Part shown: positions 59,045 through 63,282 of the stretch, one piece after another
Layout of the letters: each line of letters opens with the position of its first letter
Position numbering within the stretch: the stretch's first letter is position 1
IMG/VR virus record: IMGVR_UViG_3300031857_000053
Coordinates: 43,267-107,266 of that record
DNA from: a virus
Reading direction: 5' to 3' (one strand)
DNA: 64,000 nucleotides
Position numbers and translations under genes: made by a program
The notes under the pieces: model-generated
What the model was told of the DNA's origin: nothing
The model's database searches: none
The model's input: the letters and a program-made list of their open reading frames with translations, nothing else

Positions 59045-59250
59045 ACAATCCCCTTTGCACTCAGTTGTAACAAGGCTACATATTACCTTGCTTAGGGATT
59101 AATGTTTTCATTACAACTGCTCACCCTTGGGAAGTGAGTTGTGGTGCATTATTTAAAAATAATTTATAGTGTGGTATTAGCTGCTCCATACCACACCAGA
59201 TCTCAGCACGCTAGATCTATTCAACGTATACATAGCAGTCCGTTGAGATA
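59045..59250 (-). ncRNA. Structured noncoding RNA element, ~200 nt
   Basis: On the - strand a chain of perfect helices: TCAACG/CGTTGA (59221-59246), AGATCT/AGATCT (59198-59218), GTGTGGTAT/ATACCACAC (59169-59196, 9 bp, 10-nt loop), a compound stem ACAA+CTCAC / GTGAG+TTGT (59113-59142), CAAGG/CCTTG (59071-59090) closed by AATCCC/GGGATT (59047-59100). It lies between the 62-aa gene and the 43-aa gene and has no coding frame. Base composition is more balanced than in the flanking genes. It may be an independent RNA or the leader of the 43-aa gene. Confidence 0.65.
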
Positions 59251-59824: not shown

Positions 59825-60274
59825 TTATTTTGTCATAGCTATATTTAGGAAAGGATTGTTTCTAAGATGCTCATTGATTTCATCTTCAGTAAGATAACCT
59901 TGTACATCATGTTCTCTAAAGTCATACATCTCAAAGGTTCTTACTCCATCTCCATAAAGACCTGAGCCACCGCCAACAATGCTTATTTGAACTTCACCAT
60001 CTTTGATATATACCCATTGGGTAGCACCAAGTATAACAGGATGAATTTTTTGTTTAAAGTCATCAGGGAATACGGGTGTTACGGTACCGTGAAGCAAACT
60101 TTGGATGTAGTATATCTCTAACTTGAGATCTGCTATAATATCTTCTGTAGTTTCAGGGTCATTATTTTCTTGACTAACGAGTGAGTTTATAGCATCAAGT
60201 AGGTGTTGTTCCATAGCTTCAAGATCTTTGCTTGTTGCATTTTGGTAAATTGGTACAAATTTTTCTAGGTTCAT
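59825..60274 (-). CDS. Hypothetical phage protein (149 aa)
   Basis: The start MNLEKFVPIYQNATSKDL at 60274 is preferred: the upstream in-frame ATG at 60352 would place 26 residues inside the structured RNA and give a poor N-terminus. The N-terminal half is helical (LEAMEQHLLDAINSLVSQEN); the centre has VTPVFPDDFKQKIHPVILGA and a YIKDGEVQISIVGGGSGLYG stretch; the C-terminus is helical. Not recognised. Confidence 0.6.
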   Translation of the reverse strand: MNLEKFVPIYQNATSKDLEAMEQHLLDAINSLVSQENNDPETTEDIIADLKLEIYYIQSLLHGTVTPVFPDDFKQKIHPVILGATQWVYIKDGEVQISIVGGGSGLYGDGVRTFEMYDFREHDVQGYLTEDEINEHLRNNPFLNIAMTK

Positions 60275-60326
60275 AGGTTTATTATTTTGAGTGGGTTGGT
60301 TGACTTGTTTATTTAGAAGACCATTT

Positions 60327-61222
60327 AGGATATATCTACTATGATTCAACATATCCTAGGTTGATCTCAATAACCTATAGGGTTCACTCGGATGGTGTAT
60401 ACCCTACTAACTTCATGCAGTGCACCGGTATTTCTACCACGCTTTGGGCTTAAGCAAGTTTATACTCCCCCAAAGGAGTTAAAAGGCTGAGTCTTGACCT
60501 TTTACACTACCATTCTCACCTTGTTACCAAGACTAGAACACACTAGGGATTACTCCATAGTAGGTAGCAGAATCAATGTTTATACTCGTTCCCGAGTTTT
60601 TCTTATTGAGTTTCATAGACTTTAATTTCTACCAAGTGAGGTGGATGCCTCTTCATTACCTCCCGGCAACTCCTTAGATATACTCTCTCTATCTATCAAC
60701 TTTCCTTTCGGTACTCGTTGACCTGCTATATTACACGCAGATAAGATTCTTTAGCTCAATAAGTCGACACGCTTTTTGATTATTAGTTTTTAGTTAATAA
60801 CAAATGGCACTTGACGGGTTGTGGTGTCAAGTAATAGCTCACTACCTTTTGGGTAATGCGTACTATGACAACCCGATGTTGACTACCAATCAACGGTATC
60901 TTAAGATCCTGTTACCAGATCTCGCAATACTGGATAACGCAGTTCCCCCTTTGGTGAGAGAGTTCCACACTTATCCTATGAGTTCTATCCTATTGTAGTT
61001 TCCTACTCAACAGCATATGCCCATGCTGTGGTTACTCAGAGATTTCTCCATCATAACCGTTACTCACTTGCCTACTAGGACACCGGGACCCAAAGAGTCT
61101 TCAGTGCAGGACATGTGTTTGTTAACACACTACCTTTTATACCGGTCACCCGGCTTATCCCCCACTGCCATAGGCGGCAATATCTTTAAAACACAATGAC
61201 GTAAAGCATACCCCGCGGTTGC
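60327..61222 (-). ncRNA. Large ornate noncoding RNA candidate (~900 nt)
   Basis: There is no credible gene on either strand. On the - strand many perfect helices follow one another: AAGCA/TGCTT, TGCC/GGCA, CCGG-GUGA-CCGG (61142-61153, GNRA), TGTGTT/AACACA (61114-61129), ACAGCAT/ATGCTGT (61010-61029), GUAG-GAAA-CUAC (60995-61006), AGATC/GATCT (60904-60922), GTTGA/TCAAC (60878-60894), CTTGAC/GTCAAG (60810-60831), ACTCG-GGAA-CGAGT (60584-60597), AAAAGG/CCTTTT (60481-60503), ACTCC/GGAGT (60464-60479), TAGGGT/ACCCTA, TAGGTT/AACCTA and a final 7-bp AGGATAT/ATATCCT (60327-60357). Two loop pseudoknots are present: ACAACCCG with CGGGTTGT and CAAGACT with AGTCTTG. The style resembles GOLLD/ROOL/OLE-class RNAs, but I cannot assign a family. 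Confidence 0.8.
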
Positions 61223-61393
61223 TTATATATAAAGATCTCTCATCCATAGAGGATACTGAGAGTCCCTAACCTCGCGGAGGTATTCAAGATAATTCTCTAT
61301 AACTTGTTCATCCGATTCTTCTAGATCAGAGAGAGAGTCAGACAACTCATCTCCCTTAACCTCTCCTAACTCTAAATTTTTAGTATCTTCCAT
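61223..61393 (-). CDS. Small acidic protein (56 aa) at the 5' side of the large RNA
   Basis: Open frame from ATG 61393 to TAA 61223 with the product MEDTKNLELGEVKGDEL..., strongly acidic, ending WMRDLYI. Its last 60 bases also fold into perfect hairpins (ACCTC-CGC-GAGGT and CTCTCA/TGAGAG), so the 3' part may double as RNA structure. It could be a real small gene read into the RNA, or a chance frame. Not recognised. Confidence 0.5.
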   Translation of the reverse strand: MEDTKNLELGEVKGDELSDSLSDLEESDEQVIENYLEYLREVRDSQYPLWMRDLYI

Positions 61394-61435
61394 ATTAATA
61401 GAGATATATAGTTAGTTACACAATAGTTTACTGGA

Positions 61436-61590
61436 AAAAAAAGTCTTTGACTCAAGTGATAATTAGTGAGGGTGTATTAAACCCTCTTTCATTCTCTCTT
61501 GATTATCAAAGACTTATCGCGTGTTATCTAAAGTAAGAGATTAACTTAATCACTTGGAACACCTAGATTGTTCTAGATGTTCCGTGATTA
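61436..61590 (-). ncRNA. Two-hairpin 3' element with terminator
   Basis: Downstream of the 125-aa gene, on the - strand: a long hairpin TAATCAC-GGAACATCTAGA-ACAA-TCTAGGTGTTCC-AA-GTGATTA (61547-61590, about 19 pairs), then a compound terminator with outer stem AAGTCTTTGA/TCAAAGACTT (61506-61515 with 61441-61450), inner GAGGGT/ACCCTC, and TTTTTTTT. This is much larger than a simple terminator and may give a stable 3' RNA. Confidence 0.75.
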
Positions 61591-61605
61591 TATGTTTATC
61601 TTCTA

Positions 61606-61983
61606 TTATAGGTCACCGATGTTGTTACCTGCAGGTGTTCCTGCTGCTTTAGCTGTTGACTTAGAGGTCATTAACTTATCAGCTGCTGACTTAGCTAAGT
61701 GATCACCTAAATTACCACCATACTGTTGAACTAGTGAAGCTTGTTTGTCAAATTCTGACATATCAGCAACAACTTTATTGTTATCAGTGATAATTAAGCT
61801 ACCTGACTCACCAACAAAACGTGTTGTGAACCAAAGAGTTTCACCTGTTTTAGGGTCTACTCGGTGGTAGCTACCTTGTACTCTTTCATAATCTGCTAAC
61901 TCTGTAGCATTTCCTGTTACTGTGTAAACGAATACAGTGTTTCCTTTTGCACTCTTGTAGGTGCGGGCATAATTGATTTCCAT
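61606..61983 (-). CDS. Conserved phage protein, paralogue of the 62896-63282 gene (125 aa)
   Basis: Beta-rich protein with QGSYHRVDPKTGETLWFTTR, FVGESGSLIITDNNKVVADM, then a helical part (EFDKQASLVQQYGGN) and a Lys/Ala/Thr-rich C-terminal tail ending NNIGDL. It matches the 128-aa protein at 62896-63282 along its whole length. Similar proteins are common in Bacteroidota phages; function unknown. A ssDNA/RNA-binding role would fit the beta fold and flexible tail, but is not shown. Confidence 0.75.
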   Translation of the reverse strand: MEINYARTYKSAKGNTVFVYTVTGNATELADYERVQGSYHRVDPKTGETLWFTTRFVGESGSLIITDNNKVVADMSEFDKQASLVQQYGGNLGDHLAKSAADKLMTSKSTAKAAGTPAGNNIGDL

Positions 61984-62895: not shown

Positions 62896-63282
62896 TTATA
62901 GGTCTGCTATGGTATCAGACTTAGAATCTTGTGTGGTCTTAGGTGATGCGGATGGCTCAACTAACTTGCTGGCAAGTTTGTTGGCTAGGGTATCACCGAA
63001 GTTTCCACCGAATTGCTCAGCAAGTGAACGAGCTTTCTCAAACTCGGACATATCAGCGATAACTTTGTTATTATCGGTGACGATGAGCTCTGCGGTTTCT
63101 CCTACAAATCTAGTGGTGAACCAAACAGGTGTACCTGTCTTTGGATCAACACGATGGAAGGAGCCTTGCGCAGCTTCGAAGGCTGCTAAATCTTCAGGAC
63201 TTGAAGATTCGACTTTGTACACAAAGGTTGTCTTTGTAGAACCTGGTTTTCTGTACTGACGGATGTAAGTTGCTTGCAACAT
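62896..63282 (-). CDS. Conserved phage protein, paralogue of the 61606-61983 gene (128 aa)
   Basis: Closely similar in layout and sequence to the 125-aa protein: QGSFHRVDPKTGTPVWFTTR, ELIVTDNNKVIADMSEFEKA and GGNFGDTLANKLASKL. Codons differ from the paralogue and GC is higher. C-terminus Ser/Thr/Lys-rich, ending SDTIADL. It has its own terminator, so the two paralogues are separately expressed. Function unknown. Confidence 0.75.
   Translation of the reverse strand: MLQATYIRQYRKPGSTKTTFVYKVESSSPEDLAAFEAAQGSFHRVDPKTGTPVWFTTRFVGETAELIVTDNNKVIADMSEFEKARSLAEQFGGNFGDTLANKLASKLVEPSASPKTTQDSKSDTIADL

Follow-up and report, generated by a model that had tools for sequence, protein, structure and literature searches.

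A divergent GOLLD-type RNA followed by a predicted pistol ribozyme and a conserved RNA element in a crAss-like phage

In the 64,000-nt window of viral DNA analyzed here, the − strand of a crAss-like phage carries, in this order, a divergent GOLLD RNA, a predicted pistol ribozyme that starts 4 nt behind the end of the GOLLD model, and a conserved pseudoknotted element behind the predicted cut (CDE). The sequences, the conserved folds and the order of these parts were observed directly (Table 1). The explanation that we consider probable, judged from the sequence, is that the cut frees GOLLD from the CDE mRNA. GOLLD and pistol are both known classes, and no paper joining the two was found in the literature searched, which took in few subscription papers and did not extend to the original pistol and GOLLD reports. 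In the part of a Crassvirales review covered by a word search, ribozymes appear only as introns.

Table 1. Positions of the RNA elements and genes of the locus in the window, and of related loci in other records (record names precede their positions).
Feature	Position	Strand	Match or remark
GOLLD 3' domain, full model RF02032 1-416	60484-60876	−	67.1 bits, E 7.1e-17
Candidate GOLLD 5' domain (variable half of the class)	60877-61222	−	no gene, folding z −3.18
Predicted pistol self-cleaving ribozyme RF02679, full length	60420-60479	−	33.9 bits, E 4e-4
CDE, conserved pseudoknotted element behind predicted cut	60317-60424 (core 60424-60374)	−	model R1, 77.5 bits
Downstream gene, no assigned function	59825-60352	−	homologue in L002
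Upstream neighbour gene, no assigned function, synteny marker	61606-61983	−	paralogue at 62896-63282
TROVE-type loci	L002 3816-5826; L007 7376-9225; L018 10702-12168; L012 4107-5200; L045; L046		
Predicted three-way junction RNA, pattern			GCACCA...CUCAC..AAGGGUGAG-CAGUUGUAA...UUACAACUG-AGUGCAGAG
Predicted three-way junction RNA	window 59060-59158; L064 2155-2260; L018 11095-11240	−; +; +	
Predicted three-way junction RNA, further copies	L089 30-120; L066 1800-1900	−; +	

The original prediction described a stretch without a credible gene that holds a large structured RNA on the − strand. This was borne out for positions 60353-61222, about 870 nt of structured RNA in which no wholly internal ORF exceeds 64 aa and in which the G+C content (0.38-0.45) lies above that of most flanking genes, in keeping with the more balanced composition noted earlier. 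Compared with dinucleotide shuffles, the − strand folded with a z-score of −4.64 (none of 20 shuffles as good), and the + strand of the same region folded less well (z −2.16). The four GNRA loops that had been listed are present (CCGG-GUGA-CCGG, CC-GAAA-GG, CUCG-GGAA-CGAG and GGUA-GAAA-UACC), and relatives keep the helices with compensatory changes and show no coding in the RNA. A coding sequence, or an artefact of AT/GC composition with no functional RNA, is barely credible; although single-sequence folding by itself is weak evidence for any RNA, this reading is refuted by the covariation, the significant family matches and the lack of any ORF above 64 aa. An assembly artefact is unlikely, because a near-identical IMG/VR contig exists (99.9%). 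The RNA had no blastn match in phages, and no promoter above chance level was found upstream.

The RNA had been likened to GOLLD, ROOL and OLE, perhaps as a divergent member of one of them. The covariance-model search proposed at the time now assigns it to GOLLD (E 7e-17); ROOL and OLE, which are likewise large ornate RNAs, yielded no sequence-structure match in 60200-61600 at E-values as high as 10. At Rfam gathering thresholds no match was returned in the region, and the GOLLD and pistol matches appeared in E-value mode alone, on this short 1.4-kb stretch. The curated GOLLD gathering cut-off of 150 bits is a database threshold and not a biological feature; since the score lies below it, we file the RNA as a divergent GOLLD-type RNA rather than a standard member. 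In the window copy 68 of the 79 ungapped model pairs are formed. A second crAss-like genome (G015, records L024/L064), found via the CDE pattern, holds a GOLLD of 84.0 bits (E 5.9e-22), also under the cut-off and too far from the window copy for blastn. Both matches run end to end and close with the conserved CUCAgCCU. On the Rfam structure, 58 pairs are formed in both copies and 38 of them differ on both sides, a count that leans towards structure because the alignments were fitted to the model; the E-values are independent of that.

The 346 nt on the 5' side of the model match lie outside the Rfam model and folded better than all of 100 shuffles. No sequence similarity to G015 was found in this part, as expected from the lower conservation of the 5' half of GOLLD relative to its 3' domain (PMC12286853). 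It is very improbable that we are dealing with a new large RNA class unrelated to GOLLD that matched the model by chance: a score of 67 bits is far under the cut-off and the 5' half matches nothing known, but E-values of 7e-17 and 6e-22 were obtained end to end, with the same terminal motif, in two sequences that look unrelated but come from related phages, and other phage spacers of similar size (1.1 and 1.7 kb) had no GOLLD match under the same search mode. The region's RNA is a divergent GOLLD, probably of ~740 nt, on the − strand. GOLLD is a homo-14-mer RNA nanocage (PMC12286853), and the window RNA may form such a cage. Like known GOLLDs, the window RNA has the conserved 3' domain from one end of the model to the other, a candidate variable 5' part, a phage origin and a length of the same order (~800 nt). 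It differs in scoring less than half of the canonical members, in belonging to a genome without tRNA genes and in having a pistol 4 nt behind its end.

The 107-kb record (G000) looks crAss-like, with PHROG matches for terminase, portal and head protein; the closest counterpart of the head protein is in Leptolyngbya phage Lbo-JY46, followed by those of gut Crassvirales. The loci of four canonical GOLLDs (L029-L032, 155-328 bits) hold tRNAs or a tmRNA (in one case a tRNA follows the GOLLD end after 18 nt), and in Acinetobacter phage Bestia a GOLLD-like stretch lies between tRNA genes. This proximity is common, not universal, and no tRNA gene was found in G000. The GOLLD of G015 closes with a stem and A2U7, like a terminator, and the terminal stem of the window GOLLD has no long U tract. 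It is reasonable to infer several routes to the 3' end of GOLLD, namely tRNA processing, a terminator or a ribozyme. Separately, in L030 (8488-8950) an HDV-like ribozyme match starts exactly where a phage tmRNA stops (31.4 bits, below the cut-off of 44).

The final ~60 nt of the region, together with conserved RNA beyond it, had gone unseen in the original prediction, whose reading of the feature thus stands in part. The 7-bp loop pseudoknot reported there (CUUUGGG/CCCAAAG) is confirmed and is the diagnostic pseudoknot of the pistol ribozyme. The repeated submodule of a stem followed by AUAAAC, in contrast, is not real: the copy at 60464-60479 is pistol P1 with the conserved AUAAA, and the copy at 60584-60597 is part of the GOLLD fold. 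A second pistol at 60597-60534 was rejected (11.8 bits, E 0.9). The window pistol falls 0.6 bit short of its cut-off of 34.5, and the pistols at the homologous site of G003 (51.1 bits) and G015 (42.1 bits) lie above it. The window copy comprises P1 (4 bp), the pseudoknot, P3 (4 bp) and P2 (3 bp and one mismatch), and relatives keep P1, P3 and the pseudoknot through compensatory changes, such as A-U in place of G-C in the G015 pseudoknot. The predicted cut, GG^UGCAC, is identical in all three pistols and falls in the window at the P3/P2 junction between G60425 and U60424. Described pistols (PMC4604425) have the same three stems and pseudoknot, the same conserved core and the cleavage dinucleotide at the same position; the window copy differs from them in being fused to GOLLD and in preceding a conserved element that adjoins hammerheads in relatives. 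We regard it as improbable that the window pistol is a decayed, inactive copy that leaves GOLLD, CDE and gene on one transcript; it is the weakest of the three and carries a mismatch at the P2 end, but the same mismatch occurs in the higher-scoring G015 pistol, and the window copy retains AUAAA, AAGCG, the pseudoknot and the cut site. A pattern search for a GOLLD end with a pistol returned this phage alone, besides two chance hits (L004, L005), and a GOLLD end with a hammerhead gave five hits, all unrelated.

Relatives in IMG/VR were found via the upstream neighbour gene. Including the window, a ribozyme stands directly before CDE in 8 distinct genomes, of which three have a pistol and five a hammerhead (G007, G009, G013 and G014, and an interrupted copy in G004), G004 and G009 being close relatives. 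A descriptor search recovered the core CUGANGA + GAAA with three stems in the four uninterrupted copies, and Rfam RAGATH-1-hammerhead detected that of G013 at 31.7 bits, below its cut-off of 56.3. Across 784 kb of these records, the descriptor found intact hammerheads at the CDE site only, bar one match in G015 that lies within coding sequence and looks like chance. Because all eight genomes have a ribozyme exactly there, the ribozyme travels with CDE. Moreover, the place before this conserved RNA is held by two unrelated ribozymes, suggesting that selection acts on the product and not on the ribozyme class. In G004 (L045 2970-3665) a GIY-YIG homing endonuclease gene lies in an insert in the stem II loop of the hammerhead, which its near relative G009 has in uninterrupted form; the L045 record also has a LAGLIDADG gene within its TROVE gene. 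Hammerhead-like motifs, found by chance in pattern searches, also lie between genes of unrelated phage contigs (L112 1555, and L115 3609 and L116 2430 on the reverse complement).

The sequence from 60424 onward is conserved in all these phages. In the core hairpin of CDE, 98% of cells are paired and four pairs are compensatory. The model R1, built from six CDE copies, finds two copies new to it, in G004 and G009 (E 2e-11 and 3e-11). Further pairings outside the core form a second stem, a later hairpin and a loop pseudoknot, and most relatives keep their complementarity with changed bases; these pairings were chosen by eye and are therefore weaker evidence than the core, the second stem not being found in G003 nor the loop pseudoknot in G014. 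CDE had no Rfam match and was not found in phi14:2, Lbo-JY46, csAssE-Sib or cr106_1; L023, L110 and L111 were rejected as copies. It is probably a new RNA element, and the low edge of the feature should be moved to ~60317 so as to take it in. The gene behind it had no PHROG or Pfam match, and as its listed start lies inside CDE, the ATG at 60274 is the likelier start.

For co-transcription, cutting, oligomer formation and use of the ends, we infer the following course. A single transcript would span GOLLD, pistol, CDE and the downstream gene, and the pistol would cut it at the predicted site without protein. The upstream product would be GOLLD, now able to assemble and carrying a compact folded pistol tail that ends in a 2',3'-cyclic phosphate, and the downstream product an mRNA beginning with a 5'-OH and the CDE fold. 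Here the ribozyme may stand in for the neighbouring tRNA (RNase P) or the terminator-like stem that may serve other GOLLDs. A point against this explanation is that both Rfam scores in the window, for GOLLD and for pistol, lie under the curated cut-offs.

According to the main rival, the ribozyme serves only CDE and the RNA behind it, and GOLLD merely lies upstream and ends elsewhere, for example in its own terminal stem. We give this a substantial, though less than even, chance. Most relatives have ribozyme and CDE without a detectable GOLLD, which favours the rival as regards the origin of the ribozyme; the whole-genome GOLLD search, however, misses even the window copy, and relatives without a detected GOLLD may still have one. 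GOLLD was found upstream in only two of these lineages, the window's and that of G015, where it has the terminator-like end described above and the pistol lies ~400 nt away, behind an ORF. With the 4-nt spacing confined to the window, the case for the cut maturing GOLLD draws on one lineage. In this phage the pistol, if active, must at such a distance set the end of GOLLD, trimming it whatever the ribozyme's origin, and the terminal stem without a long U tract also speaks against the rival. Release of GOLLD from the CDE mRNA stays our preferred account. More tentatively, CDE may represent a new class of pseudoknotted RNA, found in crAss-like phages and dependent on a defined 5'-OH end, with pistol and hammerhead swapped, the cut site kept and the cut also maturing the GOLLD cage RNA; if true, one ribozyme would process two ornate RNAs in the window lineage.

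There are precedents of the same logic. Hammerheads flank phage genes (PMC3088659), working alike through self-cleavage between parts of a phage transcript; they hold the homologous position in five relatives, where the window has a pistol instead. Theta (HDV-like) ribozymes adjoin phage tRNAs and are proposed to mature them in place of a protein enzyme (PMC10879173); there, too, a small ribozyme stands at the end of a phage noncoding RNA, although of another class and beside a tRNA rather than GOLLD or CDE. The locus bears on the roles of pistol and hammerhead ribozymes in phages and on GOLLD maturation, in that a small ribozyme would end a GOLLD-type RNA. The range of GOLLD now includes a crAss-like phage that has no tRNA genes and was missed by the Rfam cut-off. 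As both window copies fall below Rfam cut-offs, surveys at default thresholds undercount GOLLD and pistol.

Some relatives carry a TROVE/Ro60-like gene (phrog_850, DUF2828), and in these relatives ribozyme and CDE are followed by a ~0.4-0.6 kb spacer before the gene. This spacer holds repeated CAGCA...CUAUAAA modules and, just before the gene, a long Y RNA-like stem (GGGAGACC...GGUCUCCC). No TROVE gene was found in the window's genome, so this link does not explain the window. Upstream of the TROVE gene in L002 (3950-4067) lies a tRNA-like sequence. Its acceptor stem is GAGAGAG/CUCUCUC, its anticodon arm is of the Asn type, both D and T arms are present, and there are additional inserts; it was not called by ARAGORN and could be a YrlA-like tRNA mimic. 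Five crAss-like records share another conserved RNA, a predicted three-way junction, which closely precedes ORFs that differ from record to record; in G015 it starts ~12 nt behind the GOLLD end.
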